In this document: in pieces, positions 3,834 to 62,532 of the stretch
How the letters are laid out: each line of letters starts with the position of its first letter
Numbering within the stretch: position 1 is the stretch's first letter
Notes under the pieces: model-generated
What the model saw: the letters and a program-made list of their open reading frames with translations, nothing else
The model's database searches: none
Told to the model about the DNA's origin: nothing
Assembly: GCA_012839325.1 (NCBI GenBank)
Contig: DUNQ01000027.1
Location: 1-64,000, forward strand
DNA length: 64,000 nt
DNA from: Candidatus Cloacimonadota bacterium
GTDB lineage: Bacteria; Cloacimonadota; Cloacimonadia; Cloacimonadales; Cloacimonadaceae
Direction: 5' to 3'
Position numbers and translations under genes: made by a program

Positions 3834-3930
3834 AAAAAAACCGGGCGGCAGCACACATGTCTGAGCTTGCTTAATGCTGCTTCGTTCCCGACCTGACATG
3901 GTTCACATTCAAACATTGGCGACACCCGGC
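3834..3930 (-). ncRNA. ffs: Signal recognition particle RNA, small bacterial type (4.5S-like)
   Basis: Read on the minus strand, the segment contains the hallmark of SRP domain IV: GUCAGGUCGGGAACGAAGCAGC, with the GGAA-type tetraloop and the asymmetric internal loop. The 5' end GCCGGG pairs with CCCGG at the 3' end (3841-3845). A run of seven U follows (3840-3834), which would be the terminator. Length is about 90 nt plus the tail, the usual size of the Alu-less bacterial form. It lies immediately upstream of the M14 peptidase gene and in the same direction. It pairs with Ffh to target membrane and secreted proteins. Upstream is TTGACA at 3965-3960 (minus strand), followed 19 nt after its TTG by TTGCTTTG (3943-3936). 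That arrangement resembles the Bacteroidetes -33/-7 promoter. Confidence 0.93.
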
Positions 3931-4233
3931 TTATACAAAGCAATTTATGTAGCTCTTTTTGTCAACAAGAAATATAAGTTCGCAGTGCTCGCCGATTTAA
4001 CGATTCGACGATTTAGCGATTTAGTGGGCTGCGCTGCTGTCGCGGACGGTGTGGGAAAATCCTTGATTCGATGAGCGGCAGCACTTCTGGCAGAACAGAG
4101 TATGAGGTTGACGTATCATGCTGATATCTAAGATAGATAGCCCATGTTTTATGAATTGTTGTCCAGTTTGCAGCCATAACCAGTTTGAACTGAAGCTCCA
4201 CAACCTGTCATAACTTCATATAACTCCATAGCT
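3931..4233. other. Intergenic region upstream of SRP RNA; short GATTTA repeat
   Basis: No convincing gene. Bases 3994-4022 carry the motif CGATTTAACGATT..CGATTTAGCGATTTA. Closely similar strings recur at about 22810, 40140, 52378 and 52715, always beside the hairpin-rich repeat tracts. The segment 4021-4080 contains further short hairpin words (GGGCTGCGCTGCTGTCGC). Small open frames between 4013 and 4203 show no start signal or recognisable motif. Confidence 0.5.
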
Positions 4234-22789: not shown

Positions 22790-23330
22790 GGAAAGCTCAC
22801 TACGTGAGCCGATTTAGCGATTTAACGATTTGGCGATTTAGCGAGCTTCGCTGCTGCCGCGTTCGATTTGGACAAGCAACATATTCGTAGCATGCCGCGA
22901 CCGGTTTGGCAACGCCCTCGTTGCCAAGAGCGGCATCAGGAACCAATCAGCACTATCTTGCTCCACTCGTTAGGCTAACGCAATAGTAACACTGACTTTA
23001 GTCGGTCGCCAAAGTAGGCTTCAGCATACTTATAATTACCATGCACAAAGCGCATCCCTCATGGTGGATTGCAAGCGTCCCCGCTTGCACCTTAAAAACT
23101 CGACACGAGACGTGTCGAATCCAATGTTGGGCAGGCAACGTCCCCGTTGCCTGAGATAGCGCAGCTATCTACTCTTGTAGCTTGTAGCTAAATTAGTCGG
23201 CTTCCTATCTCCATGCGCATCAGCGCATTCCGCACACTCTGGGCAGGCAACATCCTGTTGCCTGAGAAAGCAAAGCTTTCTACCAAAAGTCCACAAATTA
23301 ACACGAAATAACCACATATATGGCAAGATA
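22790..23330 (+). repeat. Hairpin-mosaic repeat tract A (left of the AAA ATPase gene)
   Basis: No gene in 22720-23418. The tract is a chain of different short hairpins: GCTCACTACGTGAGC, the GATTTAGCGATTTAACG motif, GGCAACGCCCTCGTTGCC, ACTGACTTTAGTCGGT, GCAAGCGTCCCCGCTTGC, TCGACACGAGACGTGTCGA, AACGTCCCCGTTGCC, GCGCATCAGCGC, CAACATCCTGTTGCCTGA and GAAAGCAAAGCTTTC. It ends AAAGTCCACAAATTAACACG. Most words recur in the same order at 24745-25060 and 51839-52200, and reversed at 42150-42590. It ends about 70 bases before the promoter of the plus-strand ATPase gene. Confidence 0.8.
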
Positions 23331-23362
23331 ATCATCATATTTACGAAAATATCACAAAAAAC

Positions 23363-23390
23363 TTGACAACTTACCTATATCTCTTATCTG
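23363..23390 (+). promoter_or_regulatory. Putative promoter of the AAA ATPase gene
   Basis: TTGACA at 23363-23368 and TATCTG at 23385-23390 are 16 bases apart. The start codon at 23419 follows about 28 bases later, with a GGAG ribosome site at 23408-23411. It lies just outside the repeat tract, so the gene appears to carry its own promoter. Confidence 0.55.
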
Positions 23391-23418
23391 TGTCAAAAAA
23401 GAAACACAGGAGCGAATC

Positions 23419-24744
23419 ATGTTAATTGAATTTTCAGTTCAGAATTTCCGTTCCATCAAAGATAGGATCACTCTTAGCATGGAAGCCACCAGCCTGAAAG
23501 AGCATCCCGATCACGTCACACATACTCCTAGGCATAGCCTTCTGAAAACCAGTGTTATATATGGCGCAAATGCTTCCGGTAAGAGCAACCTATTTGCGGC
23601 TTTGAATCAGATGAGAAAGATGATGATGTATTCCGCAAAAGATAGCCAAGCAGACGAACCGATGGGCTACGATCCCTTCCTCTTGGGAGCGGGTAATAAA
23701 GAAGAGCCCACCGAGATGGAAGCCATTTTCATAATAGAAGATGCAATCTACAGATACGGCTTTTCTTATACAAGGAATAAAGTGGTATCTGAGTGGTTAT
23801 TTAGAAGATATGCAAAACCTTATGCTCGTGAGATTTGCCTTTTTGAACGCAAAGGACAAGATGGGTTTCAGGCGCATCGCGACTTTAAAGAAGGGGACGA
23901 ATCATTGCAAAAATTCTTACGTGAAAACACCTTATTGATCAGTCTTTTTGCTCAGTTCAATGGTATGGTGTCAAGGCAGATAATAAGGTTTTTTAACACA
24001 ACATTTATCTGGGCTCTCCACATTTATATGCCTGCTGATACCATAATGCTAATTGAAGAAGGAAAAGTCCCTTTAGATTGGATAAGCATGTTTTTAAATG
24101 CGGCTGATTTGCAGATCAAAGAAATTCGCATCAATGATGAAAGCTTACATGAAGAAGAGAACCTTAGGCCTAAAGGCGGGTACTCTATTATTAAAGCCCA
24201 AGGCAGCGATAAGTCTAAGATAACGATTCATGTCAAGCATGAGTATTATGATGAATTAGAGAAGAAATATAAATCGCAATGGTTTGATCTCTATTCCCAG
24301 GAGTCCGAGGGCGTAAAAAAGCTCTTTTGCTTGGCAGGACTTATTTATATCAGCATCCAAAAAAGCTATAGACTGTTTGTCGATGGAATAGGTGCCAACC
24401 TGCATCCTTCGCTAAGTAGATTGATATTCCGCCTTTATCAAGACCCGGATATAAACAAAAATGGTGCTCAATTAATTGCCACTACCCACGATATTACACA
24501 CTTAAATAGATCTCTTTTCCGCCGCGACCAAATCTGGTTTATGGAAAAAACAAGCTCTCATAATTCTGAATTGTATTCCTTAGCAGAATATAAACTTCCA
24601 CAAGGCAAAGCACGCAACGATGCATCCTATGGAAAAGACTATTTCCGAGGCAAGTATGGAGCTGTTCCATTTGTGGATTATGATAGTTTTGTAGAATTGT
24701 TTAAGAGACCGATAGCGGCTCCGGATGGTGGCGAAGATGAGTAG
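23419..24744 (+). CDS. AAA15/COG1106-type ATPase (SMC/ABC-like), possible anti-phage protein
   Basis: 441 residues. It starts MLIEFSVQNFRSIKD, the typical opening of COG1106 ATP-binding proteins. Walker A is YGANASGKSNLF (49-60). An ABC-like signature is SQESEGVKKLF (about 293-303). A switch histidine is in ATTHDITHLN. Walker B is unusual: LFVDGIGANLHPSL has Gly (323) where the catalytic Glu is expected (usually DEI..SLHP). Family members are found in restriction and abortive-infection loci, often paired with a RloB-type nuclease, but no such partner lies here. It stands alone on the plus strand between two hairpin-mosaic tracts in the same orientation, which suggests a cargo gene. Assignment to the ATPase family is sure; a defence role is inferred. 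Confidence 0.82.
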   Translation: MLIEFSVQNFRSIKDRITLSMEATSLKEHPDHVTHTPRHSLLKTSVIYGANASGKSNLFAALNQMRKMMMYSAKDSQADEPMGYDPFLLGAGNKEEPTEMEAIFIIEDAIYRYGFSYTRNKVVSEWLFRRYAKPYAREICLFERKGQDGFQAHRDFKEGDESLQKFLRENTLLISLFAQFNGMVSRQIIRFFNTTFIWALHIYMPADTIMLIEEGKVPLDWISMFLNAADLQIKEIRINDESLHEEENLRPKGGYSIIKAQGSDKSKITIHVKHEYYDELEKKYKSQWFDLYSQESEGVKKLFCLAGLIYISIQKSYRLFVDGIGANLHPSLSRLIFRLYQDPDINKNGAQLIATTHDITHLNRSLFRRDQIWFMEKTSSHNSELYSLAEYKLPQGKARNDASYGKDYFRGKYGAVPFVDYDSFVELFKRPIAAPDGGEDE

Positions 24745-25170
24745 AAGAAGGCTAACGCCATAGTAACACTGACTTTAGTCGGTCGTTGTGTAGGCTTCAG
24801 CCTACATGGTGGATTGCAAGCGTCCCCGCTTGCACCTTAAAAACTCGACACGAGGACGTGTCGAATCCAACATGCGCAAAGCGCATTCCTCACAACTGTA
24901 GCGCTGGCTTCCAGCCGGCCGTAACGCTGACTTCAGTCGGCTTCCTATCTTCATGCGCATCAGCGCATTCCGTACAACTGGGCAGGCAACATCCTGTTGC
25001 CTGAGAAAGCAAAGCTTTCTATTTAAAGTCCACAAATTAATACAAATTATTCTCACTGCCCTCCTTTCTCGGTCGGGTAACGCCCTCGTTGCCCATGAAA
25101 CCATAAAAAAGTGCGTAGCACATCTAAATAATACGAGCATAGCGAGTCTAATAATAATTATTCAGTAAGA
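24745..25170 (+). repeat. Hairpin-mosaic repeat tract B (right of the AAA ATPase gene)
   Basis: Starts within a few bases of the ATPase stop codon with GCTAACGCCATAGTAACACTG. It then runs the hairpin series in the common order: ACTGACTTTAGTCGGT, GTAGGCTTCAGCCTAC, GCAAGCGTCCCCGCTTGC, TCGACACGAGGACGTGTCGA, ATGCGCAAAGCGCAT, GCTGGCTTCCAGCCGGC, CTGACTTCAGTCGG, ATGCGCATCAGCGCAT, GGCAACATCCTGTTGCC and GAAAGCAAAGCTTTC. It ends AAAGTCCACAAATTAATAC. Looser hairpins (AACGCCCTCGTT, GTGCGTAGCAC) extend to about 25170. The core (24747-25046) is the clearest copy of the family. Confidence 0.85.
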
Positions 25171-25447
25171 GCTTCACTGCTACCGCTTTGTCAGACCCTT
25201 CCACATCCTCATCTCAAGGTGACATACCTGACTAACACACCCAGCCCGCAGCCAAAAAGAGCATATCCTATTGCTTTCCTATTAGATACAGCTTAGCTTC
25301 CGCTTATGATATGGTCATGGCTATGACCATATCATGACCACATCATGACCAGAATCCAATAGGGAAGAGGCGAGAAGGAAGGGCGAAAAAAGAGGAAATT
25401 AAACACAATTTTGTTGCATTGTAAGCGTCCTCGCTTACAGATGCGCC
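25171..25447. other. Intergenic region with palindromic element copy 2
   Basis: No gene seen. 25171-25274 is unremarkable. 25275-25367 is the second 93-bp palindromic element, annotated separately. 25368-25447 is A-rich and then carries one more short hairpin (TAAGCGTCCTCGCTTA) and ATGCGCCTTAGCGTAT at the 3' end of the PIN gene. Confidence 0.5.
25275..25367 (+). repeat. 93-bp palindromic element, copy 2
   Basis: Begins TTTCCTATTAGATACAG and ends CAGAATCCAATAGGGAAG, imperfect inverted repeats. The interior ATGGTCATGGCTATGACC and ATCATGACCACATC match copy 1 (4234-4326) in the same orientation. It lies about 80 bases past the 3' end of the five-gene minus-strand operon. Confidence 0.7.
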
Positions 25448-26902
25448 TTAGCGTATTGTCTGAGTTTGCTTATCAATTATCTCTTTCACGTAATCTAATG
25501 TGCTACATTTCTCGGTTTCAATTTCAAAAGCATTTATACCTTCGATAGCTACGGGAATGTTTCCAGCAGTAATTTTATGTTTTTGCTTAATTTCAGAGTA
25601 GTCGTATATCCCAGGTAGTAGAACATCAAAACTCAACGACTTTGTCTCAGCATGATGCCGAAACTCATCGCATGTAAACATTAATTTATCTTCCAAGTCA
25701 TCATGTTTATATTCATAATATAGTTTGTGCTTATTCCTGTAGGGTGGTTGCGGCTTTGAAGGAAAATTATATAAGGTCGGATAAGAGGAGTTCAAAAACT
25801 CAAGCGGACTTTTTGTGTAGCGTCCACTTGGCGGATTAGGACACTTAGGCATACTTAAAGCTATGTTGTAATCATATTCAAGGAAAGATTTTGGAATGAA
25901 TTCACAGCCATTTAGAAGAGATAGCTCTAACCTTAAATCATCGGCAAATACATTTCCAGTATTTTCTAAATTTACAACCAACCTTAAGGTGTTATGTTTA
26001 TAATATAAATGAAAATGGATTTTACTAAGCCATTTATTTAATTTCTCAATCCATTCTGGGTAATCTACATTTATATAATTATCTATTCGTTCTTTAGTTT
26101 GTGCAACATGCATCTGCTGTATAAAGTCAAAATGAAATCTCGCATGGTTGGGCTTATAGAGTTTTTCGGCAATATTTAACTCTTCCGAAAAATCTATTTT
26201 CAGTGGGAATTTGCTTTTAAGCTTATTGATGAAATAATCTGTTTCTTCTGGAGTCAACGGGGGGAATAATTTGACAACAGGCTTTTCAGTCAACCTTCCA
26301 TTGATGTCTTCAAGAAAACAATTTACTTGAATGTCGGGGCGATTTTTTTTCAATTCAATAATCTGTTTTTGAAGAGTTTCTATCGTTTTCTGATTTTCAT
26401 CCTTTGAGGGAGGCAATAGCCAGCTTTCGGGTATGTCATGCTTATCTAACTTTCTATTATGTGCTTTTGCTAAAATAATATTATCATGTGTGATAAGACA
26501 TATTTTGCCTTGATTTTCTGCCTTATATTTCATTACATATGCAAGCAGCATGTCATCAGGATTTGATATATCAAGCAAACCATCGACATTAGCAAGATCT
26601 ATGTATTTATAATGCGGTGCTAATTTAAGAACAATACTTGAGTCTTTATTGATTGGGTATAACGTATCATCACTGTTTAGGATTTTCGACAAGATTGAGT
26701 TGTATTTCCTTGCTTTTCCTGATCTTCGTCTATTTGGATCTGTTTTGAAGTTATCTATTTCTTTCAATACGGGCTCGGTTAAAAGTAACTCAATTGAGTT
26801 GAAGTCGCCAAATAACTCAGAAAAATCTATTTGCTCTAAGTCTTTACATTGAATAAGGAAATTTGTGTCGAAGAAAACGATAAAATTTTTGCTGTTTTCC
26901 AT
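25448..26902 (-). CDS. PIN-domain nuclease with long uncharacterised C-terminal region
   Basis: 484 residues. Residues 1-150 are a PIN nuclease domain of the kind seen in DUF4935-type proteins. The acidic residues expected for metal binding are visible: D12 (FFDTNFLI), E48 (TEPVLKEIDNF), D116/D117 (NPDDMLLAYVM) and D140 (LITHDNII). A basic insert, PNRRRSGKARKYN, lies at 57-68. A short coiled coil (about 165-185) links to a region of about 300 residues without recognised motifs (FHFDFIQQMHVAQ, FHLYYKHNTLRLVVNLENTG). PIN proteins cleave RNA, often as toxins. The gene is strikingly AT-rich: a sample of 60 bases at 26041 has 25% GC, against 57% at 33001 in the SNF2 gene. It is last in the operon, 40 bases after the AbiJ-type gene. 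It is likely the RNase effector of the system; no antitoxin is seen. Confidence 0.78.
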   Translation of the reverse strand: MENSKNFIVFFDTNFLIQCKDLEQIDFSELFGDFNSIELLLTEPVLKEIDNFKTDPNRRRSGKARKYNSILSKILNSDDTLYPINKDSSIVLKLAPHYKYIDLANVDGLLDISNPDDMLLAYVMKYKAENQGKICLITHDNIILAKAHNRKLDKHDIPESWLLPPSKDENQKTIETLQKQIIELKKNRPDIQVNCFLEDINGRLTEKPVVKLFPPLTPEETDYFINKLKSKFPLKIDFSEELNIAEKLYKPNHARFHFDFIQQMHVAQTKERIDNYINVDYPEWIEKLNKWLSKIHFHLYYKHNTLRLVVNLENTGNVFADDLRLELSLLNGCEFIPKSFLEYDYNIALSMPKCPNPPSGRYTKSPLEFLNSSYPTLYNFPSKPQPPYRNKHKLYYEYKHDDLEDKLMFTCDEFRHHAETKSLSFDVLLPGIYDYSEIKQKHKITAGNIPVAIEGINAFEIETEKCSTLDYVKEIIDKQTQTIR

Positions 26903-26942
26903 TGTCTTGTCCTGTTTGTTTCTGTTGTTTTTTTAATATGAA

Positions 26943-27767
26943 TTATCCCATAAACTTCTGTTTCATAAAGTTAACGAAAGCAGAACATGTTACAAGCATG
27001 TACTTTGCTTCTTCAAAATTGGGTGGATGTTTGGCATCCAAACAAAGTGCATGCCTTATCCCAGCATCCTTGTGACATGTATATCCATATAACTTTGAAA
27101 AAGCTTCTGCCATCACAGAGTTTATGTCACCGTTATCATTTAGTATTTTCAGGTAATTGTTCAGTGACAACCCTTCGCTTTTTGCTGCTACTCCCGCCGC
27201 AGCTTCAGCAGCTGTAATTGAATGGTGTATAACCATTTTGTAGTTTGTGTTTAACTTTTCAGAGAATGCTTCAATAGCATCATTCATATGTTCATCTATG
27301 TTTTCATATCCTGTTTTTGCAGCTTCAGCAATGGACGCTATCTCCATTTCGTTTGTGACAGGAATTAGTTTTTTCCCTAATAAGCGAAAACCTGAGTTAT
27401 GTTCTTCAAGAATACTGTTAATGGTTTTAATTAAATTATCAGTTGCTTGACCATAAATGCTATATGAATACTGTAAATATTTTTCTATAAAATCATACGC
27501 TTCATACCAAGCGAGGCTATTATATGAGTTCTTAATCACATTAAGTTTTTTGGTAAGACTATAAGGAATATCATTATAATTAATATGGAGGATGTTACAC
27601 CATATTAATTTATGTATTCGTTCGGTTCTTGCGGATGAATCTTGACCCAAAGAGCTTTCAAATAGCCTCGTTGCATTATATAAGCTGACTTTTAACTCAT
27701 CATCCATTGAGTCGATTTGCATAATCTTTTTAGGTCTAAGTCCCATTCTTTCAGAAAAAGTTGGCAT
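26943..27767 (-). CDS. AbiJ-NTD4 domain protein with HEPN/Abi-like C-terminus
   Basis: 274 residues. The N-terminus MPTFSERMGLRPKKIMQIDS followed by MDDELKVSLYN matches the AbiJ N-terminal domain 4 pattern (SERMG ... Q-x-x-S-M-D-D-E-L). The C-terminal half (150-274) is helical. It contains HHSITAAEAAAGVAA and YGYTCHKDAGIRHALC, with a GIRHAL motif at 237-242 like that of abortive-infection C-terminal/HEPN domains. These are often RNases that stop growth of infected cells. The gene begins 2 bases after the methyltransferase stop, so translation is coupled, and it precedes the PIN gene. Base composition is AT-rich like the PIN gene. Family assignment is from memory of the motif and fairly confident; the role in this operon is inferred. 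Confidence 0.75.
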   Translation of the reverse strand: MPTFSERMGLRPKKIMQIDSMDDELKVSLYNATRLFESSLGQDSSARTERIHKLIWCNILHINYNDIPYSLTKKLNVIKNSYNSLAWYEAYDFIEKYLQYSYSIYGQATDNLIKTINSILEEHNSGFRLLGKKLIPVTNEMEIASIAEAAKTGYENIDEHMNDAIEAFSEKLNTNYKMVIHHSITAAEAAAGVAAKSEGLSLNNYLKILNDNGDINSVMAEAFSKLYGYTCHKDAGIRHALCLDAKHPPNFEEAKYMLVTCSAFVNFMKQKFMG

Positions 27768-27769
27768 TA

Positions 27770-30700
27770 TTATCCTCTTATTATTGTCTTAAATTCTTGA
27801 TACTTCTTTAGTATCGTCTCTTTTGTGATATAGCTATCGTGCTGTGCTATGTCTTTGCGCTTTACGATGGGGAAGCTTTCCATTACATGTTCTATTACAT
27901 CTTCTAAGCAGGTGAAATATCTGTCTAAGCTGTTGTTATCGGCTTTTAGGTATTCTTGGAACTCTGTTTCGCTGCCGAGATAGAGATGGAAATAGATGGC
28001 ATCAAGCTTTGTGCGGAGGTGGAAGCGACGCTCTTCATCCCAGATGAAAGGATTGCCATCATAGCCCAAGGAGCGGGCAAAGGGACGCAAGCTATTGGAG
28101 GTATAGCTGAGCTCTAAGACTGCTTTGATTATGTAGTCGTATAGGGATATTTCTTCGTTTGAGTCTGATGGTATAAACTTGATTTCTTTTAAGGGCTCAA
28201 AGGCGGAAGGGGGGAGTACGGCTAATTGTTTTACGATAAAGAAATTTAAGGCAATGCCACCGATTTTTAATCTTGTAATGTAGTCTAAGGGGTAACTAAT
28301 TAAAGATCCAAATAGCATAATCATTTTAGATGAGCCGAGATTTGAGAATATAAATTGTAAATTGTTAGCGGCTGCAGTAAACTGAATTACGGATGCTAAA
28401 ACAGTTCTTTCATTTGTGCTATTTGATGTTCCTCTAAAGCCAATGAGATACTCCATCTCACAGTGAATCCTCGTCAATAAATCCGCTTCTTCAACCCAAT
28501 ATCGTGGCAAGGGTTCATAGTCTGTATCTTGCAAAACTTCTAAGGGCACTTCAGGCAGTTGAGTAGATTGTGAGCCTATTGGAAGCATGCTAAAATCACC
28601 AAAACGATGATTGTAGTGATGAATCATCTTTGCTTCGTATAGAGGAAGATAACGAGTAGATTCCCCAAAAAAGATGTTTCCTCTAAGTTTTGCCCCTGAT
28701 GCTTCCAAATTAGCTTTCGTTTTGAAAAGATGGGAGTCGTTTGTCATATCAAACATTCGCATAAAAGAAATATCCCAAGGGTTTCCTTCTTGATTTTTGT
28801 TTTCGTTTATTAAGATCGGTAGTCGACGATAGATATATTTAGCAAGTTCGGCTTGAGCTTTATTACGAAAGATGGGGCAGGTTTTGGTGTTGGGATTAAG
28901 TAGTGCAAAGTCATCTGGACTAAGATTAAATCGTTTATTCTCATCTTTGAGATCAGCTACATCTTGAGCAAAGAATAGCATATCTGCAAGCAATGTTTTA
29001 TCAGAAGCGGATTTGATAGTCAAAAGAGAGAACTTCATGCGGCTATCTACAGCCGGGAATATCTTTTTTCTGTTCTCAAAATCATATAGACTGACTAAGG
29101 AGTTGCTGTTTACTGCATCTTCAAAGAAAAATCTAGTGGAAAAGTCTGTTGCAATACCGGTGGGGACTATGAAGCCGGTGCGTCCTATATTGCTGAGCAA
29201 ATTACGGTTTAGTTCTGCAAAAACTGTATAGTAGTTTATATCACCTCTACCGCAGAGAGGGAAGGAGCCTGAGTTGTGTAGCATTAGGGAGATACCTTCG
29301 CTGGTTCGTTTTGCAGATGTATATAACTTATGCAAAATTGGGTCTTCTTGGGGTAAAGCTTGGATAAGGCGCCTGCGGGCAGCTGCGTTGCGAGCATTGA
29401 CGATAGTATCACTATGCCCTGCAAAAAACTCTTTCTCTTGCAGCTTTGCTCTTTCCCAAGGCGGATTTCCCAATACGCAATCAAAACCCACTCCGTCTTT
29501 TATGTAAACAGTATTATCCTCTTCATTTATTTCAGTTGGAAATACATCCGGGAAGGCAAGATGCCAATGGAAAAACTTATATTCTTCTGCGATGCGCTTG
29601 ACTTCCTTTCTTTGCTCATCGGATATATTTTCAGGATTATCCAAGATAGTGGTGAGCGTGCTATTTAAGATCGGCGTAATGCCATTGGGCTGAATGTGCC
29701 AGAGGAAGGCGGCGCACCAAGCGTCATAGGGCAATCTCCTTCTTTCATAGAGCTCAGATTGTGTGTGTTCACGATAAAGTTCGGCTTTAGTTTCAATGTC
29801 CGAGAGGCTATCTTCGCTTATCTGATAGAAATTTGTTTCCTCATCATATCCGGCTTGAAGATCGAGAACATGTCCCGTATCATATCCGCCAAATATATCG
29901 AGTTGATCCACGGTTTCTCTATTTTCTCTTCTAAATACTTTGATGAGCTCGGGATCGTCTCCTTCCAGCGCAGTGAAAGCATTGTTTGGTATCCCTGCAT
30001 AAAGCAATTCAGGCGTTGTTCCCAAGAGCGAATTACCGCAGAGTATGCGGTGGTCAAGGAAGTTCAGGGGCTTGCCGGGCTCGATTGCTTCCATCCATAG
30101 CGAGATTTTGCATAGCTCCACCGCCATGGGATTGAGGTCCACTCCATAGATGCAAGAGCTGATCACATCGCGCAATGCTTTTTGCTTCTCTATTGCCGAG
30201 GGGCTATCCTCACCCGCGCGGATATTTGCCACAAAGCTTGCGATGAGCTGAGCCGCCGCAATGAGAAAGTGTCCGCTTCCGCAAGAGGGATCACAGACCT
30301 TTAGTTTCAGCAAGTCTGCTTCGGGCTCTTCGCTATTTTGCATGATATCATTGATGAGCGGCAGGAGCGCGGAGTCCAGCAGGCTATTCACCAAAGAGGT
30401 GGGCGTATAATAGCTTGCCGTGGTCTTGCGTTGATGTCCGCTTATTGATTTGAGCGAGAAATATCCCGCGGCAATCTCCATCTCCGGCTGCAATTCCAAG
30501 AGCGATTCATAGACGCTGCCCAGTTCCTCAGAACCTAAGTTTTTATATGAGATCATCTGATAGCTGCGGTTCTTTTGGATATAGCAAAGCTCGCGAAATG
30601 CGGAGAGCAGACTGCGGTTATCTATGAGGGCGCTGTCCAGATGGGGAGTGGAAAGCAGTTTGCGCTCACGGGTATATTCCGGGAACTTTTTATTTAGCCG

Positions 30701-31876
30701 TGAATTGATGAGGGCAGGATCGGTCTTAAAAAGGAATGAGCCCAAGGCTGGGATGCCCAAATCAGGATTTCCGTGATACAAAGAGCTGAAGATGAGGCTT
30801 AGCTGAAGCCAGAGATCGTGAGCCTTGCCTCCTCTTTGGCGGCGCGCAAGATAGCGCAGGGGCAGGCTGGAATAATACTTTTCATAAAGCTCACGCTTCT
30901 TTGCGGATGTATCCGGCAAGAGCAGAAGCTCCCTATCTTCGGCTACAAAGATGAAGATCATCCTATATACGAGGCGCAAAAGCTGGTGATAAAAGTCTGT
31001 GGGGGAGAGTTCGCCGGAGCTAAGCGCTCGTCTCAGTTCGTTATTTGCCGAGTGAGAGATAAAGCCTTTGCCGAGGATGCTGATGGAGTTTTCCACCTTA
31101 TCGCGCAGCTCTTCCATGGCGCGCACGCCTTCGCTGATGGAGCCGAGATACCAGCTTTCCATGATGCAGGTTTCGGCAGGGAGGGGATAATTGAATTCAT
31201 CTAAAGAAACTGCAAAGCGGGATTGATGGCATATCAGCCAGAGCAGGAAGAAATCCGCATAGCTATCGCTATCGAAGATTGCTTTGAGATCGAAGCCGAG
31301 ATAGGAACTGCGCGTGAGCGAGGCGTTATTGCGCATGAGGCGGAGGCTATTGCCATTGGTGAGGATGCCCCAGAGCTTCTTTTGGTTTCGGTTTAGATAT
31401 TCCTGCATGAGGCTAAAGGGTGAGCCGCTTAGCAGGAAGCTATTGTCTCTTGCGCTGCGCGGACGGCGATCGAGATCCCATTTATGGCTCATGAGATGCA
31501 AGGCGAGGGGCTCTTGTGCTTCGTGGCTTTGAGGATAGCTTTTGCCTTCTATGCTTTCGCCTCGGATGCTTTGCAGAGAGCCATAACCCAGCTCTTGAAA
31601 GAGAGGGATGAGCCACATGCTGCGGGTCTCGGTGGTGCCGCTATTTTCCGGGGGAAGGGTCTTTAGATGGGCCTGAAAGCTTTTCCAGAGGCGGCTGAGG
31701 CGGGCATAAGAGCGGGTTGCGGCTTCGTTTAGGCGTTCGCCTGCGCTGAGGCGATAGTCTTTGGGCAAAAAGGCGGGGATAGCGCCATTGCCGGAGAGGA
31801 GCTTGAGCAAGAAGTCGCGCGAAAGCAGCGAGCCTTCGCTATGGATGTGGGAAAGAGCTTGGTTATCTTTTATCAT
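27770..31876 (-). CDS. Large Eco57I-type N6-adenine DNA methyltransferase (DrmMI/PglX-like)
   Basis: 1368 residues. The methyltransferase core has SAM motif [16 protein letters not shown] (about 527-541), [14 protein letters not shown] (578-590) and catalytic motif [12 protein letters not shown] (801-810). The latter is an N6-adenine (NPPW) type. [10 protein letters not shown] just before it is typical of the Eco57I/PglX/DrmMI group. The N-terminal 450 residues resemble the helical region of such enzymes ([20 protein letters not shown]). The long C-terminal part (830-1368) is probably target recognition. No PD-(D/E)XK nuclease motif is evident to me, so it is more likely a modification enzyme than a self-contained type IIG enzyme. 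The third gene of the operon: starts 10 bases after the SNF2 helicase and is linked to the AbiJ gene by 2 bases. It would mark host DNA as self. Confidence 0.88.
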
Positions 31877-31886
31877 TTTGCTGATC

Positions 31887-34745
<2,859 letters not shown>

Positions 34746-34762
34746 TATAATTCCTTGAATGT

Positions 34763-37700
34763 TTAAAATGGGGTGGGTTTGCCGAAGATTTGGGGATAGC
34801 GGTCTAAGGTGGCTTGCCAATCTTCATCTTTATGGGTAAAGCGAATTACGGAAAAGCCGAGGTCTTTAGCTCTTCTTTCAATGCGCCGATCTTGAGCTTT
34901 GATGTCTTCTGCTTCGTGGTGTGGACCATCAATATAGATGAGAGCATGATTAGCGGAATATGTAAAGTCCGGAGTTGTGCCAGCGGCTTCTAATTTCTCT
35001 TGCGCGTGTGTGGGCAGAATATAGTCCTCTTTATAGATGCGCATGAGCCATTTCTCTTCAAGCTCAGATTCGCATTCCTTCTTCAGTTTGTGATAGTGAT
35101 CCCTGCGAGTATCCGTGGTGGATGAGCGAATATAATCGCAATCTAACATCTTGATAAGGGTATCCTTAACCGCTTGTCTGTCCAAGATTTCGTGATCCAG
35201 TTGATTTGCATAGCTGAGCAGGCAATCATAGCAGGCGGCTTCGCAATCTTCTTTTGAAAATTCGGAGCGGCGCAGGTCTTCAAAGGTGTCGGGATCAAAG
35301 TGGCAAACCTCCAGGGCGGTGCGGATGAGCTGTCTATAGTTATCTTCTATGAGTAATTGTTTTAAGACTCCTGCTCCGCCTTCGGCTGCCTCATAAAAGA
35401 GGATGCTGCGGCGCTGATCTCTGCTTGGCAAGGCTTCGGCGGCAAGCTCCCTATCTTCGAGTTCAAAGAGCCTTTGTATGGCTACTTTGAGGGCGGATTG
35501 CAGGGAGGCGAAAACGCTGTCCGAAAGCTCTGTCATGGGCTGGAGCAAGAGGCAATTCTTAGTGTCGCTAACGAAGGGGACAACTCTTTGGCTGCGCTTA
35601 TCGGGTCCGTCATATTCAAAGATTTCATCGTCTTCTTCAGCTTTTGCTTTTTCATGGCTTTCTTTTAGCCAAGTGCCTCTTTGGACGTCTATGAGAAAAC
35701 CGTCGAGATCAGTTTGCTTGCGACTGCGATAGCCCATGTTTATGCGCCAGATAGTGGCAGAATCGCCGTAGTTGAGCGTGAAAAGCTCCTCTTCATCGTC
35801 TTTGAGATCTATGCGCGTGGAAAGAAGGCTTTCGCCCTTTTGGTTGAACTCAACTGTACTGCGCATCTCGAAGCCCATTCTTATGCGTTCCTCTTCATCG
35901 CAATTGATGCGGGATCTGCGGAAGGCTACCACATTTTGCAGGCGGAAAAGATTGGCGAGCATGGTGAGATCGCTGCTCTTACAGTGTTGGCAAATGTCGT
36001 AGTTTTCTTTGTTTAGATATCCGCAGTTCTCACAGAGTTTGGCTTTGCTTAAGCCCAAAAGTTCATCGTCATCGCTAGCAGGCAGGATCACCTTGTTAAT
36101 GATATAGCGCGAGCCTTCGTGATATACAAAGGTGTTTGGACCAAATTCGGTGATAGCCAAAAAGCGGGGACGGGAGAGATATTCGTCGTGCTCTTTCCTG
36201 TTGTCTTTAGCTGGAATGAAGGCTGAGAGCGGGAGGCGCGGGAAATTATAACCCGGTAAAAAGCCTTCCGAAGCAAAATATCTATAGCTGTAAAAGTCTG
36301 AATAAAACTCTGCGCTGCCCGTGAGAATATCCATCTGAGACTCTGCCTCTCGGCGCAATCTATCGGCTTGTCTTCTTTCCTTTTGGGTGAGGCTGCGATC
36401 TTGGCGTCTGATGTTTTGAGCTTCTTGCTGCTTGAAAGCCGCTTTGTAGAGATCGCGCCAGCGGTCGCAGGCTTCGTTGAAGTTTCTTTCCAATTTACTG
36501 AAAACCTCGTCTAACCATTCATCGGGCTTATACCAAAGGCTTTCGGTAAGTTGATCTTCAATGGATTCTAACATATATCTTGCCTTGGCTTTGCTTCGTG
36601 CTTTCAGATCTTCATCTTTTAGCGCAAGGCTGAGAGATTCTCTAATGGGCAGGGTGGTATCGCCGCTTTCTAAATCTATCACTTTTTGCAGTGAATTGCC
36701 AAGGCTCATCTTTGAAAGCGAAAGCCAAATTGCATTGATGTGTGAGGTGAGCATATCCTCATTGGCAAGATCGATCTGAGGGCTGGCAACGCTACCGGAG
36801 ACCATTGCCGAGGGGCGTTTGAAAAAGTATTGATCATGCGGGCTCATGGAGGATGAATAGCTGAAGATAAGAGCGGGCTGTCCGCTGCGTCCGGCGCGTC
36901 CGCTACGCTGGGCATAGTTTGCCGGAGTGGGCGGGATATTGCGCATATTCACCACGTTTAGCTGTGATATATCAATGCCCAGTTCCATGGTGGGGGAGCA
37001 ATAGAGAATGGGCAATGTGGCTTTGCGGAAGGCTTCTTCACGCTCTTCACGAATCTCATAATTTACCTGAGCGGTGTGCTCGCGGGCTTCCATTGCCATG
37101 GTTTGGGACATCTGTCTGTAAAAATCACGGAAGAATGAATTTATGGGCTGATCGTCTGAGGATTTGGTGGGCTGGCGCAAGGGATCATAAAAGCCTTTTT
37201 CGCCATCGCCTTTTCTCCATATAATTGCTTGGTCTCTAAGCTGATAGGCGGGGTCAAGTTTGTCCTTTCCGCTGCTGATCACAATGCCGTATCTTTCTAA
37301 TTGTTGCAAGAGATCGGTGATTATCGTCGTCACTTCAAAAGTGTCTAAGCTTTTCTTATATGCTTCACCGAAACGGCGCGGGGACTTCAGATATTGTCCA
37401 AAGGCACTGTGTATGGAAAGATATACGTTCTTCTCTTTCTTTTCATTTTTTCTGCTTGATCTGGGGTATAGGAAAGCGGCGTAGATCAGCTTTGCCGCCT
37501 GTGTGCCTTCTTCAAAGCCCCAGGGCGGGATGAGATTGCTCCTGCTTCTTATGATGATCTGTTCTAAATCTTTGAAACTCAGATATTGGGTGTCTATGGC
37601 TAAAGATCTGCGCATGAAATCAAGTAAGGTTTTGAGGATTTCATAGCGGTTTTCATCGCTTGCTTCCTTGAGTGCGGGGTGGCACTCGTCCCAAAGCTCT

Positions 37701-39931
37701 TGATCTTTGGAAAGCTCGTCTAAGGTAAGGTAGTCTATGGATAAAAGTCCCGTTTGTTCGAGGTTCGGCGCCGTCACTCGCCAGCCGCGCCTGAGATCAT
37801 AGTAAAGCATATAGCCCAAGATCTCTCTCAGGGCACTATCGGTATTTTGACGGGCATGACCTCGGTCTGCATCGGGATCGCGGGCATATTCATCATATTC
37901 AAGCGCTAAGGCGTCAAATACGCTTTGTGTGAGTTTGTCGTGGGTGATACCTTCATCTCCGGCTTTATCTAAAGCGCGGTAAAGTGCGCCGCGTAAATTG
38001 CTTACTTGAATGAAGTCGTTGAAGTGTCCGGATTGTAGAGAGGCATCTTGACGGTTGTCCGTGAAGCTGAGCAGCTTTTTGGCTTCGTCGTCTATTTCCA
38101 TGTCTTTGAGGTGTTTTATCACGGAAAGGGAGAGTACGGTTGTGGCGGTGCTGCGTCCTTCTGTTCCTAATACGCTGAGCTTGCCGAAGTCTCTTTGTTG
38201 GCTGGTGGAATGGGCAACTCCGCATGAGGGGCAATATCTGAATTTGCCGCTGAAAAAGAAATAGTGTTTGCCGGATGAGTCTTGCTCGCCTTTTTGATTT
38301 AGCTTGTATGGAGTTGGCAGGTAATCTCGGCGATTGCGGGGGATCTTGCCATCTATATCGCGCCAGTCGGGCGGGAAGTTTTGCTCGACATTAAAGTTGT
38401 TTTCGAGCTCATAGAGATAGCCTGCATCATCGTCTTCACCGCCTGTTTGTCCGAAATCGCGGGAGCTGAATACGATTGTGTGGCTTTTTTCATCAAAGTT
38501 TTTGAACACTGTGTAAAATTCCTGACCGCATTGACGGCAAAAGCATAAGGGGAGCAGGATGCGCTCTTTATTGCTGCCGGGGATGAAGATCTGTTTCTGC
38601 AGGGTGAGGTAGCGGCGGCTCTCATCATCCAAGCCGGCATAAACTGTGTCGCCGCGGCTGATAAATTGGTGCAACCTGAAAGCGAAAATTGGGAAGTTTG
38701 TCTCTTCGTTTTTGGTGTTGTATCCCAAAAGAAGCATTTGCATGATGGCTTCTTGGCAAAGTGAAAGTTCCTGCCCGGTAAGCTCTTGAAGCTTTTTTGC
38801 GCCGCCATCTTGACCTGAGATGCTGATGGGTGTGGCACGTATAAGCTTCTTCGTGGGTTCATCGCTGCTGAGCCCAAAAGTGCTTTCAATCCATGAGGCA
38901 AGAGGGTTTCTCTTTAGCTCTTCCTGCGTGATGTGATCTATATTCTTTACTTGGGATATGCTTGTTTTTAGCTTTTGTAGGTTTTCAGGGATATTAAAAT
39001 CATATTCTTTGGTGACGCGTAAAAGACTTTCACCAATCACATTCTCAGGGGGAAGATCGCTGCCAAAAAGCAGGGCGGCAACGCGGGCTACTTCCTTCTT
39101 TTGGGAGATGAGATCACCTTGGGCTGCCATGGTGGCTGAGGTGCCAACGCAGATTAGATCGTGCGCTCCCGTGGCAAGACGTGTGCGCCTTACAAGCATG
39201 GCAACATCGGCGCCTTGTCTGCCTCTATATGTGTGCAATTCGTCTAATACCAAGTATTTGAGATTTTGGCAGTTCTCTACCAGCTTGGCTTCTTCGGGGC
39301 GGGTGAGGATGAGTTCAAGCATCACATAGTTGGTGAGAATAATATCGGGTGGGTTTTCCCATATCTTTTTGCGGTCTTCTGCGCTTTCTTGTCCTGTATA
39401 ACGTTTAAATGTCACCAGCTTTTCATTTTCCGAGCCGGGTTGTAAAAACTTCTTGAGCTCATTTTCTTGGCTATTTGCGAGCGCGTTCATGGGATAGACT
39501 ATGATGGCTTTGATGCCTTTTCCGGTACCGGTTTTTAGCACATGGTTCACGATCGGGACTATATATGAGAGGCTTTTGCCGGAGCCCGTGCCCGTGGTGA
39601 GAACATAGTTTTGGTTTTTATATGCCTTCTCGATGGCTTCGCTTTGGTGGGAATGCAGTCTGATGGGAAATCCGGGGTCATCATCAGAGCTGCGGATGCG
39701 GAATATATCGCGGCATTTGGGATGGAGTATTCTTTCATCAATGAAATCGTCTATGGACTTGCCTTTTTCAAAAAAGGGGCTGATTTGAATGAGAGGATCA
39801 GGCCATAAAAGCCCGTCATCCATCTCACGCTCAACTAATTCGTTGATTCTCTTGTTTTTGATGTTCAGATAGCCCTTGATGAAAGAGCTGTAATCTGAGA
39901 TTAGGCTTCTTCTGAGATCAAATATATTCAT
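34763..39931 (-). CDS. DEAD/DEAH helicase fused to DUF1998 and a Vsr/DUF559-like nuclease domain (DrmA-DrmB / DruE-like)
   Basis: 1722 residues. Helicase lobe 1 has [16 protein letters not shown] (112-127), [18 protein letters not shown] (DEAH-like) and SATMA. Lobe 2 has [16 protein letters not shown] and [13 protein letters not shown]. Zinc-type cysteine pairs occur at [14 protein letters not shown] and CENCG...CQHC. [23 protein letters not shown] is the C-terminal motif of DUF1998, as in MrfA, DrmB and DruE. The final 90 residues ([19 protein letters not shown], then PHHE) resemble a Vsr/DUF559 PD-(D/E)XK endonuclease: D, then YIDG, then H-H-E. DISARM normally splits helicase (DrmA) and DUF1998 (DrmB) into two genes; here they are one protein with an added nuclease. 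Druantia DruE is an alternative relative. First gene of the operon, start ATG 39931 after AAGGGG. Domain calls are confident; the nuclease tail is somewhat less sure. Confidence 0.87.
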   Translation of the reverse strand: [1722 protein letters not shown]

Positions 39932-39940
39932 AACATCCCC

Positions 39941-40045
39941 TTATGAAAAAAGATGGAAGGTAAACTTATCGGAGAGATAAGTGCATGGTATGTATAACAA
40001 TCTAAACTTATCAAAAGCCGGTTTGTGTTCACTTTCTCCCTCCAT
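39941..40045 (-). CDS. Possible 34-codon leader ORF before the defence operon
   Basis: On the minus strand ATG at 40045 (MEGESEHKPAFDKF...) runs to TAA at 39943-39941. The stop merges with the ribosome site (AAGGGG) of the helicase-DUF1998 gene, which begins at 39931. A small hairpin CTTATCGGAGAGATAAG (39965-39981) lies inside it. The ribosome site of this frame is weak. It may be a leader peptide coupling translation or only a chance frame. Confidence 0.25.
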   Translation of the reverse strand: MEGESEHKPAFDKFRLLYIPCTYLSDKFTFHLFS

Positions 40046-40081
40046 TAGTTTTCTTCTCTTTCCTTTTTTGATGATGTTTCA

Positions 40082-40110
40082 AGTATTTTGGAAACTATGT
40101 ATCCCGTCAA
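40082..40110 (-). promoter_or_regulatory. Putative promoter of the five-gene defence operon
   Basis: On the minus strand TTGACG (40110-40105) and AATACT (40087-40082) are 17 bases apart. The first large gene begins at 39931, leaving an untranslated leader of about 140 bases that holds a small hairpin and a possible short ORF. No stronger candidate is seen in 39932-40377. Confidence 0.35.
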
Positions 40111-40129
40111 GATAATTGTGGGTTAGGGT

Positions 40130-40377
40130 TGGGGAAGCCGATTTAGCGATTTAACGATTTAGCGATTTAACGAGGGATACAAGGCTGCTTTTGGATAATG
40201 GAACACGGATTGAACGGATAAAACGGATTTGCACGGATAGGGATGCTGCTACGGGCGGTGTGGGAACGCCCTCGTTGCCTCGAGTAGCAGCGTAACATTA
40301 TATGTTGATGGAAATGCCTATCTTATTGATGATCAAAGGAATCGAACTATTCGATGTTATCGAATAGTTGACCTGCT
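40130..40377. repeat. Partial hairpin-mosaic tract C with GGATTTAACGGAT-type words
   Basis: Contains CCGATTTAGCGATTTAACGATTTAGCG (40139-40167 region), then AACACGGATTGAACGGATAAAACGGATTT (40202-40231), the same word family that bounds tract F at 51.8 kb. AACGCCCTCGTTGCC follows (40265-40279). The last part (40310-40370) contains TATCTTATTGATGATCAAAGGAATCGAACTATTCGATG. This is related to the tandem units at 41.6-42.1 kb and forms its own hairpin (AACTATTCGATGTTATCGAATAGTT). No gene. Confidence 0.65.
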
Positions 40378-41232
40378 TTAGAGCTCATACCATTGCTTGT
40401 GAAGCATTAGCTCAATCGAAAAGAAAGATCTATCTGCATCAGTGCGCACAATGGGCAGGGGAGAGCCATTTCCTTCGCAGGCATTGATTATCTTTTCCAT
40501 GCCCGAGAGCATGCTTTCAAAGGGGTCGGGATCTTTGAGAATATCACATATTCTCTGATTGCGTTTAATGTCAGCGTTGAAGTTTAGCTCTTTAATCTGC
40601 TCATCGGTAATGGAGCTATCTGGTCCCGGATAGCTTTTTATAGTTATTTTATCCCGCAAGACGCATACTTCTATGGGCTTTGGAATCTCATAAGAACGGT
40701 GGCAGAGAGCATTTAAAAGGGCTTCTTCAATTGCCTTTTTAGGATATGAGAAAAACCTGTTTGCACGTGCAAGCCCCGGCATTTTTTGAACACGTTCCAT
40801 GAAATATAAACTTTCAAAATAGCTCATGGTATCGCTGAACATCTTATCTAAGGTGCCTTTGAAGCTTATCTCCTTGTAATCTTCTTTGCCGTAGATGTTT
40901 ACACGTTGAACGATATCGATCTGAGTTTGCGGAAAAAACTTATCGGGTTCATCGTTGAAAAACATCAGAGCCACATTTTTAGGATAGTATTTATCTTGCA
41001 CCTTGTCAGCGAAGTTGAGCTTGATCAGCAAATCTTCAAAGGGCATGTATATGCAGCTATCAAAGAGTTCTCTATCTATCTTGCTTAGATAGGAGCGAAT
41101 AAGTCCGAGATCGAGATCTGATATGCTAAAGCGCATGTTTGCTCTATCGTCAAAGGGCGTGCTTGTGCGCATCAGTTCTTGATCTTGTTTTGCTGTTATT
41201 GTGTCTGTTTTCATAGCTTTTTTCTGGCTCAT
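40378..41232 (-). CDS. Schlafen/AlbA-type ATP-binding protein lacking its N-terminal AlbA domain (probable remnant)
   Basis: 284 residues. From residue 25 onward it matches the middle and C-terminal parts of COG2865 (AlbA_2/Schlafen plus HATPase_c_4-like) proteins: STPFDDRANMRFSISDLDLG, then PKNVALMFFNDEPDKFFPQT, FKGTLDKMFSDTMSYF, YPKKAIEEALLNALCHRSYE (an N-box-like ATPase segment) and a DKITIKSYPG segment. Full-length proteins carry about 150-180 residues of AlbA_2 domain before the STPFDD region. Here only 24 residues precede it, starting MSQKKAMKTDT. So it is either a truncated gene or an unusual short form. The upstream region is repeat-rich, which fits a deletion. Such proteins often act as regulators or nucleic-acid-binding factors in defence islands; function here is unknown. 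Confidence 0.7.
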   Translation of the reverse strand: MSQKKAMKTDTITAKQDQELMRTSTPFDDRANMRFSISDLDLGLIRSYLSKIDRELFDSCIYMPFEDLLIKLNFADKVQDKYYPKNVALMFFNDEPDKFFPQTQIDIVQRVNIYGKEDYKEISFKGTLDKMFSDTMSYFESLYFMERVQKMPGLARANRFFSYPKKAIEEALLNALCHRSYEIPKPIEVCVLRDKITIKSYPGPDSSITDEQIKELNFNADIKRNQRICDILKDPDPFESMLSGMEKIINACEGNGSPLPIVRTDADRSFFSIELMLHKQWYEL

Positions 41233-41547
41233 TGTTTCTCCGAATATTGTCTTGATCTTGGGGACATTATGAATGGCTAAGGTATTCTGTCAATGTAAAT
41301 TATGGGTGTTTATTTGATGGGAAATTGTGTGTTCTCAGGCGAGAGAATCTCACCTGACCAAATCGAGCAGAGCGAGATAGTGTTGATTGTTTTCTGATGA
41401 CGCTCTTGGCAACGGGGGCGTTGCCAAACCGGTCGCGTCATCTATGCTTTCTCAGACAACGAGGACGTTCCCTGCCCGAAAGGAGAAGGGATGCGCTTTG
41501 GGACTGAGTTGTAAAGGATTTCTTTACAACTGAACTGACTGCTAACT
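41233..41547. repeat. Hairpin-mosaic tract D, inverted fragment
   Basis: No gene. Contains the inverted form of the mosaic start: GAGATAGTGTTGATTG...CTGATGACGCTCTTGGCAACG, then GGGGCGTTGCCAAACCGGTCGCG, then short words (CAACGAGGACGTTCCCTGCCCG, ATGCGCTTTGGGACTGAG). TTGTAAAGGATTTCTTTACAA (41508-41530) is a clean hairpin that begins the tandem units to the right. Confidence 0.65.
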
Positions 41548-42150: not shown

Positions 42151-42589
42151 GATTGGTTGGTGCGGGATGCTTATACATTTTATTCGAGCGGAGTGAGATA
42201 GTGCTCTTTAATAGAAAGCTTTGCTTTCTCTGGCAACAAGATGTTGCCAGCCCAGTTGTGCGGAATGTGCTGATGCGCATGGGGTTAGGGAGCCGACTGA
42301 AGTCTCAGCGTTACGGCCGGCTGGAAGCCAGCGCTACAGCTATAGGGAATGCGCATTGCGCATGTTGGATTCGACACGTCTCGTGTCGAGTTTTTAATGT
42401 GCAAGCGGGGACGCTTGCAATGCACCATGTAGGCTGAAGCCTACACAACGACCGACTAAAGTCAGTGTTACTATGGCGTTAGCCGAACGAGCGTAGTGAG
42501 CTCAATCTGTGTGATTTCGTGTTAATTTATGGTCAGTAAAGATAGAAAGCTTTGCTTTCTCTGGCAACAAGATGTTGCCAGCCCAAACA
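42151..42589 (-). repeat. Hairpin-mosaic repeat tract E, inverted orientation
   Basis: The same chain of hairpins as tracts A, B and F, but on the other strand: GAAAGCTTTGCTTTC, GGCAACAAGATGTTGCC, ATGCGCATGGGG, CGACTGAAGTCTCAGCG, GCCGGCTGGAAGCCAGC, ATGCGCATTGCGCAT, TCGACACGTCTCGTGTCGA, GCAAGCGGGGACGCTTGC, GTAGGCTGAAGCCTAC, ACCGACTAAAGTCAGTGT and TACTATGGCGTTAGC. A second partial start (GTTAATTTATGGTC...GAAAGCTTTGCTTTC) lies at 42515-42582. It abuts the stop codon of the TSUP transporter gene. Confidence 0.85.
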
Positions 42590-51806: not shown

Positions 51807-52360
51807 CGGATCGAACGGATTAGCACGGATGACGCGACCGGTTTGGTAACGCCCTCGTTACCAAGAGCGTCAACAGGAACCAATCAACACTATTGTTCTT
51901 ATCTCAATCAGCAGAGCTAACGCCATAGTAACACTGACTTTAGTCGGTCGCCCAAGTAGGCTTCAGCCTACATGGTGGATTGCAAGCGTCCTCGCTTGCA
52001 CCTAAAAACTCGATACGAGGACGTATCGAATCCAACAACTCATGCGCAAAGCGCATACCTCACCCTCGTAGCGCTGGATTCATCCGGCCCTATCGCTGAC
52101 TTCAGTCGGCTCCCTAACCCCTTATGCGCCATGCGCATACCCCACCTTTTGGGCAGGCAACATCCTGTTGCCTGAGAAAACAAAGCTTTCTATAAAATAA
52201 CGCGCCGGTGGATTGCAAGCGTCCCCGCTTGCACCTAAATACTCGACACGAGGACATGTCGAATCCAACAACTTGTGCGCAGTACGTCCAAACAATGCGA
52301 ACGAAGTGAGCAAATATCCTGTGTAAATCCGTTCGATCCGTTAAATCCGCGTTCTATTAT
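51791..52360 (+). repeat. Hairpin-mosaic repeat tract F, bounded by ~40-bp inverted repeats
   Basis: Left end 51791-51834 reads AATAGAACACGGATTTAACGG and onward. Right end 52317-52360 is its near-exact reverse complement (ATCCGTTCGATCCGTTAAATCC, ending GTTCTATTA). Between them lies the mosaic in standard order: GACCGGTTTGGTAACGCCCTCGTTACC, ACTGACTTTAGTCGGT, GTAGGCTTCAGCCTAC, GCAAGCGTCCTCGCTTGC, TCGATACGAGGACGTATCGA, ATGCGCAAAGCGCAT, GCTGACTTCAGTCGG, ATGCGCCATGCGCAT, GGCAACATCCTGTTGCC, GAAAACAAAGCTTTC, then a second GCAAGCGTCCCCGCTTGC and TCGACACGAGGACATGTCGA. The left end overlaps the last codons of ndk, so insertion or extension happened at the very end of that gene. Confidence 0.85.
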
Positions 52361-52741
52361 AAAAAAATGCTGCCACTCGCTAAATCGCTAAATCGGCTCG
52401 CCCCGCGAGCTACAAGTTTACATAACATTTTCCAACTCAAAATTATTTCAGGCCTCATTTGTCAATCACTTACGATACCCCAAAAAAAATAGTTTGCGAT
52501 TTTGGCCACAATTTTCACTTTTGGGCTCCTATATAATAGTAGAGGGTTCTGTTCATCATTCAAAAGTTGATGGTATGGATAGAGCTTACTCTATAGTTCT
52601 TTTATAAGTGTATAGTTGTGTTAAAATTAGTGAAATTAATGGCTAAATATGAATGTAGAAGCCACGGGGCGAAGCTGTAGCCGTCTTCAATCGGTCGGGT
52701 ATCGCTCTCGTTAAATCGTTAGATCGGCTCGCCTGCGAGCA
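52361..52741. other. Intergenic region after tract F
   Basis: 52376-52400 holds CGCTAAATCGCTAAATCGGC and GCTCGCCCCGCGAGC; 52700-52740 holds CGTTAAATCGTTAGATCGGCTCGCCTGCGAGC, the same two words again. Between them (52440-52660) is AT-rich DNA with no gene or recognisable signal, other than a mild hairpin GAGCTTACTCT. Confidence 0.5.
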
Positions 52742-62456: not shown

Positions 62457-62532
62457 GGGGCATTAGCTCAGCTGGGAGAGCGCTTGACTGGCAGTCAAGA
62501 GGTCAACGGTTCGATCCCGTTATGCTCCACCA
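62457..62532 (+). tRNA. tRNA-Ala (anticodon GGC)
   Basis: 76 nt with encoded CCA. Acceptor stem GGGGCAT/ATGCTCC contains the G3-U70 wobble that identifies alanine tRNAs. D-arm TAGCTCAGCTGGGAGAGC. Anticodon stem-loop CTTGA-CTGGCAG-TCAAG with anticodon GGC. T-arm AACGGTTCGATCCCGTT. TAATCT at 62433-62438 may be its -10 box. Confidence 0.97.

Follow-up and report, generated by a model that had tools for sequence, protein, structure and literature searches.

The window, i.e., the whole stretch of 64,000 nucleotides analysed here (contig DUNQ01000027.1 of a Candidatus Cloacimonadota genome), contains four copies of a chain of short hairpin words, located on the plus strand at 22972–23283 (copy 1, within a span of 22.97–23.31 kb), 24.745–25.06 kb (copy 2) and 51916–52193 (copy 4), and on the minus strand at 42207–42484 (copy 3). 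The words named in an earlier note on this DNA were all found at these four loci. With copy 2 as the reference, similarity amounts to 93% at 42 kb (minus strand), 85% at 52 kb and 75% at 23 kb (E = 2e-114 to 2e-59). A fifth copy, devoid of the alpha REPIN described below, lies on another contig (C87:10425-10650). In all five, the block ends sharply on both sides, the left end being GGCTAACGC or GCTAACGC. A script scanning the window for perfect hairpins (stem of at least 6, loop of 3–6) detected 6–7 of them in every chain copy, compared with a mean of 0.25–0.27 and a maximum of 4 in 1000 dinucleotide shuffles, which bears out the several distinct hairpin words per chain that had been claimed; a general inverted-repeat search of the window returned nothing at its settings. 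At gathering thresholds, Rfam matched only a bacterial small SRP RNA (3835–3932, minus strand) and a tRNA (62457–62529, plus strand) in the window, with no match in the chain.

Between the chain copies lies a defence-gene island (window 23419–41232). It encodes an AbiLi-like AAA ATPase (23419–24744), a PIN protein, an AbiJ_NTD4/PDC-S32 protein, a DrmMI/type IIG-like methyltransferase (27770–31876), a DpdE-like helicase (31887–34820), and a product with a weak pAgo-associated match (40378–41232). Two directly oriented chain copies stand on either side of the AbiLi-like gene (window 22972–25060), and recombination between them could delete the gene.

The first module of copy 2 is G1 (24751–24806, plus strand), a GTAA/GTAG-tagged REP pair composed of GGCTAACGCC-ATAGTAACA, the hairpin CTGACTTTAGTCGG (24769–24782) and the GTAGGCTTCAGCCTACA hairpin (24789–24806). 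It is followed by module alpha (24808–24871, plus strand), a REPIN with the inverted hairpins TGCAAGCG-TCCC-CGCTTGCA (24815–24834) and TCGACACG-AGGA-CGTGTCGA (24845–24864) between the outer tags GGTGGAT and ATCCAAC. Next come the word ATGCGC-AAA-GCGCAT (24872–24886), which elsewhere stands single, beside GTAG and beta modules, the GTAG-tagged REP pair G2 (24896–24944, plus strand; GTAGCGCTGGCTTCCAGCCGGC and GTAACGCTGACTTCAGTCGGC), and the word ATGCGC-ATCA-GCGCAT (24953–24968). The last module, beta (24978–25022, plus strand), carries a TGGG tag and the hairpin CAGGCAACA-TCC-TGTTGCCTG (24983–25003) abutting AGAAAGC-AAA-GCTTTCT (25004–25020). Related elements occur nearby: an additional alpha REPIN directly after copy 4 (52207–52271, plus strand), an additional beta module beside copy 3 (42542–42588, minus strand), a solitary alpha-type hairpin, TGTAAGCG-TCCT-CGCTTACA (25420–25439, plus strand), and the REP-like unit E, TTGGCAACG-CCCT-CGTTGCCAA, found upstream of copy 1 (22897–22930, plus strand), upstream of copy 4 (51843–51864) and on the minus strand at 41406–41427. 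Two further repeats were noticed in the same regions. One is a 13-bp perfect hairpin, ATGATATGGTCAT-GGCT-ATGACCATATCAT, at window 25306–25335 (L186), with ATGACC repeats nearby and a similar sequence in G001:C33; the other is a separate dispersed repeat of up to ~270 bases (AAGTTTACATAACATTTTCCAACTCAAAATTATTTCAGG...), present at window ~52409–52690 and L049:2219–2400 and in many copies in this genome (G000) and its sister genome G001.

The words were described earlier as unrelated. They are distinct, but some of them share loops, loop closure, and tags. A TCC(N) loop is common to three chain words, two of which also have the C-G loop closure and the (K)TGGAT tag, and other chain words have GTAG/GTAA tags and a CTTCAG-type loop in common. 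Alpha is a short intergenic palindrome with many copies, those in the window sitting in gaps between likely genes; in most copies its two hairpins are paired 2–11 bases apart as inverted dimers (REPIN). Measured against a 5′ GT(A/G)G tag located 0–2 nt from the stem, its GTGG-AT-stem arm fits and its TTGG-AT-stem arm does not. In G1 and G2, a GTAG tag precedes a palindrome (GTAGCGCTGGCTTYCAGCCGGC and variants, with 12 exact-pattern copies in the genome).

The claim that the order is fixed was upheld in part. The copies at 24.7, 42, and 52 kb agree (G1, alpha, ATGCGC, G2, ATGCGC-type word, beta), and the order GTAG-alpha-beta appears again in G001, at C6:67.8 kb and the end of C2. A rearranged order is seen in the 23-kb copy (G1, ATGCGC-type word, REPIN, beta-like unit, ..., ATGCGC word, beta), its REPIN being placed after the ATGCGC-type word and an extra unit, GGCAACGTCCCCGTTGCC+AGATAGCGCAGCTATCT, lying in the middle. 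In addition, the C87 copy is without the REPIN, and at other loci GTAG adjoins beta in either relative orientation. Therefore, the module order is a strong tendency and not a rule.

RAYT gene and hairpin words in the phylum

The earlier note had proposed a search for a RAYT or TnpA gene, and one was found in the same genome, flanked by REPIN words. The only Y1_Tnp (PF01797) match over the cut-off in the genome is a gene for a 217-aa protein at C101:13252-13905 (L049:1195-1848). The protein passes the NCBIfam model NF047646 REP_Tyr_transpos (91.5 bits, cut-off 80) and fails the IS200 model NF033573 (23.8 bits, cut-off 55). Its sole PDB sequence match, TnpA-REP 4ER8, listed there as bound to a REP hairpin, is also the top fold match of the predicted model (pLDDT 85), with modest TM-scores of 0.43/0.56. 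The HUH motif (NHVH) and the conserved tyrosine (Y184, within the DYCYTVEYILNNPVKAGL stretch) are present in the alignment (A5). Judged by these sequence features, the C101 protein is a predicted REP-associated tyrosine transposase (RAYT). Its gene lies between inverted REPs, which occur dispersed through the genome as well: alpha hairpins are densest here, with four alpha-type hairpins upstream, six downstream, and a full alpha REPIN on either side. Upstream, TTGGAT-TCGACACG-TCCC-CGTGTCGA and TGCAAACG-GGGA-CGTTTGCA-ATCCACC, a pair built like the window's alpha module when the latter is read from the opposite strand, are followed by two further alpha-type hairpins.

Y1 genes are present in 42 of 60 relatives. 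The 300-base flanks of 28 Cloacimonadota Y1 loci (16.3 kb in all) contain 107 hairpins, with 5 expected, and at 13 of these loci one and the same hairpin word occurs to either side of the gene; the control ndk/spoIIE loci (n=10) have 11 hairpins in 37 kb. No hairpins were found near the RAYT-like genes L080, L083, L085, L113, and L115. NF047646 is passed by most of the RAYTs scanned, with L097, L107, and L093 below the cut-off. L049 clusters with L087/L086 in the RAYT tree (98/99), and the L087 words, TTGGAT-TGCAGGCG-TCT-CGCCTGCA, have the TTGGAT tag in common with L049; the words of the closest RAYTs share the KTGG tag and TCC(N) loop, with unrelated stems. The L099/L107/L108 clade (99/96) is flanked by a TTGGG tag and a TCCT-loop hairpin abutted by another hairpin, whose loop is GCA or GGA. 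Thus, the word architecture follows the tree. This two-hairpin architecture is that of the window's beta unit (GGCAACATCCTGTTGCC + AGAAAGC-NNN-GCTTTCT), but the stems are different. It is also worth mentioning that at one Y1 region (L084, G007:C23:15900-19200) sets of four hairpins stand before and after the gene in matching order (GTGGGGGT-ttta-ACCCCCAC, CCTGGCCT..., CCCTGCCT..., GTGGGGGT...), and that a perfect hairpin with a stem of ~40 bases and a loop of 3 bases lies near another Y1 locus (L094:292, G016:C161).

Based on this architecture, beta is probably a REP of a RAYT clade of the L099/L107/L108 type that was not found in this genome. In a pattern search of 125 genomes of the phylum, the exact beta word turned up in G000 and G001 only, and the GTAG word in five; across these genomes, no RAYT partner of the exact GTAG or beta word was identified. 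In G009, beta is present with different stems, as inverted four-hairpin units. G001 contains beta copies and no Y1 match. The GTAG modules are without an identified RAYT partner in this genome, and a RAYT flanked by the GTAG word was found neither here nor among the sampled RAYT loci. The genome is a MAG of 147 contigs, so missing RAYTs may be assembly gaps.

Dispersal of the modules and proposed assembly of the chain

Used as a whole-genome query, the chain gives 56 matches, which break at module borders. Covariance models of alpha and beta each match 43 times in the genome (for alpha, some places are counted on both strands), the modules being dispersed separately over more than 20 contigs. 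Most chain words are found elsewhere too, alone or combined differently, and in relatives the modules occur apart from one another. The gap between ndk and spoIIE is ~0.9 kb here and ~0.1 kb in G002, G004, G006, and G009; the chain, the extra REPIN, and unit E account for a good part of the difference. For the REPIN, no clean empty site or target-site junction was recovered, the only candidate being C87, with 11 unmatched bases in its place.

Since the modules are dispersed separately, alpha flanks the RAYT gene, and beta matches the words of a RAYT clade, it is proposed that several REP families make up the chain as a BIME-like mosaic, all of them intergenic and present as tagged single hairpins, abutting double hairpins, and inverted pairs (REPINs), that alpha belongs to the genome's RAYT, and that the chain arose through spread by RAYT and then block copying (probability of roughly 0.87). 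The spread of the families was probably the work of HUH transposases, with later copying in blocks through recombination, although movement of a module was not observed in any case. We infer this movement, the enzymatic activity of RAYT, its recognition of tag and loop, the cleavage site, the direction of transfer, and the order of events. RAYT, an HUH/Tyr enzyme, would bind the hairpin as single-stranded DNA via the 5′ tag (KTGG) and the loop (TCCN), and the stem would need only to pair. The enzyme would then cleave next to the hairpin and move copies in trans. Different REP families would land side by side in the same intergenic regions. Subsequently, homologous recombination would copy or convert the resulting GTAG-alpha-beta blocks, and the order would thereby recur. 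Insertion of units next to one another, with block copying afterwards, seems to be the best account of this order and constitutes the least secure step of the proposed mechanism. Published data show that TnpA-REP proteins depend on the tag when they cleave single-stranded REPs and, in some systems, also on loop bases that tolerate no change (PMC8266576); the conserved tag and loop with diverging stems seen here fit this dependence.

The identities of individual modules show that the chain copies have a mosaic history. G1 is 100% identical in copies 2 and 3 (24.7 and 42 kb), beta is identical in copies 1 and 2, and the beta of copy 3 is nearest to its own neighbour, with which it shares an A-T to T-A stem swap. 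It may be asked whether the chain is simply a composite block that is carried along passively, by homologous recombination, segmental duplication, or gene conversion alone, with RAYT playing no part in its spread today. The identical G1, the double stem change common to two neighbouring betas (local conversion), and the sharp block ends in five copies would suit this possibility, which we nevertheless consider doubtful: the modules are scattered individually across more than 20 contigs, C87 has no REPIN, copy 1 has it in a different place, and alpha hairpins are densest at the RAYT gene. Moreover, passive copying accounts for the recurring order and not for the origin of the units.

Covariation of the stems

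Pairs are kept at 94–99% in the aligned copies of alpha, beta, and G2. The three module alignments contain 10, 13, and 3 cells with double-sided changes, values reached by none of 500 shuffles for each module in a null that ignores the relatedness of copies, and shifted registers lose these changes. The earlier observation that stems vary in step is thus confirmed. When one arm of a hairpin is copied from the other, a double change can result from a single event. Because of this, and since the shuffles are blind to relatedness, the covariation indicates that pairing has been kept and not that RNA has been selected. It is very improbable that the hairpins act mainly at the RNA level, as mRNA 3′-end stabilisers, terminators, or structured non-coding RNA, with covariation reflecting RNA folding. 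The covarying stems, the start of the 24.7-kb copy no more than 10 bases from a stop codon, and the position of copy 4 downstream of ndk agree with such a role; yet the chain lacks Rfam matches, no T-run was seen after the hairpins when the sequence was read, each orientation is represented among copies of the same modules, words flank transposase genes, and DNA hairpin recognition or arm-to-arm copying also yields covariation. That the words represent the terminal repeats of some transposon, such as a MITE, or folded single-strand recombination sites (attC-like), is barely credible despite the sharp block ends and the succession of several hairpins, as no long terminal inverted repeats or target duplications were noticed and the alpha and beta architectures are explained by the RAYT association.

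Comparison with known REP systems

The system is of a known kind, RAYT-REP with BIME-like mosaics. The view that the element is unlike REP/BIME had to be abandoned, since the REPIN words flank a RAYT gene in this genome and a BIME is itself made up of different REP types, e.g., y-z1/y-z2 in E. coli (PMC8266576; PMC2817692). Similar to described REP/REPIN-RAYT systems (REPtrons, TnpA-REP; Nunvar 2010, PMC2817692; Corneloup 2021, PMC8266576), an HUH/Tyr RAYT, closest to 4ER8 in sequence and fold, lies between inverted tagged hairpins, which are dispersed between genes, form inverted pairs, and show compensating stem changes. However, the alpha tag is KTGG (GTGG/TTGG) with an AT spacer instead of the mostly found GTAG, the TCC(N) loop is conserved, beta units consist of two abutting hairpins, and the C101 protein, with its long N-terminal part, has 217 aa compared with 165 residues in 4ER8. 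As in BIMEs, different REP types are mixed in a few recurring arrangements, but a single array here combines no fewer than four word families, which differ in tag or core (GTAG, KTGGAT, TTGGG, ATGCGC). G1 and G2 carry GTAG and CTTCAG-like loops like the listed families of the GTAG superfamily (Di Nocera 2013, PMC3733652), and the multi-hairpin flanks resemble TIRtrons (PMC3733652). The CGTC superfamily was suggested for alpha by CGTCC in loops and was rejected. CGTC REPs have an unpaired terminal CGTC tag and are found without a transposase (PMC3733652), whereas alpha has one and its CGTC lies inside the hairpin (stem and loop), so alpha words are not CGTC REPs. IS200/IS605 elements share the Y1 HUH fold and hairpin ends, but the IS200 model stays under its cut-off and the repeats are dispersed without the gene.

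The cited RAYT-REP work concerns mostly Proteobacteria and GTAG tags, and no account of Cloacimonas palindromes or Cloacimonadota REPs was found in the literature searched. The tag and loop sequences and the stringing together of unrelated families, in a little-studied phylum, look new. The data reveal a REP family that is linked to a transposase and has a tag other than GTAG, and mosaics of families for which no enzyme is visible in the genome. Approximately 20 RAYT loci in one phylum, many with their own hairpin words, form a ready-made data set on recognition by these enzymes: from locus to locus the stems differ freely, and the tag and loop remain similar. Tentatively, one might envisage a KTGG-tagged, TCC(N)-loop REP superfamily possessing Cloacimonadota RAYT clades of its own, in which tag and loop alone would be read, the stem would be free to become private to the element, and families could join in composite blocks moving as one. 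Beyond the phylum, TGCAAGCGTCCYCGCTTGCA was found in ten stretches in a collection of 84,980 species, and in several MAGs labelled Verrucomicrobia, Chlorobiota, and Bacteroidetes it stands beside hairpins with the same loop and other stems.
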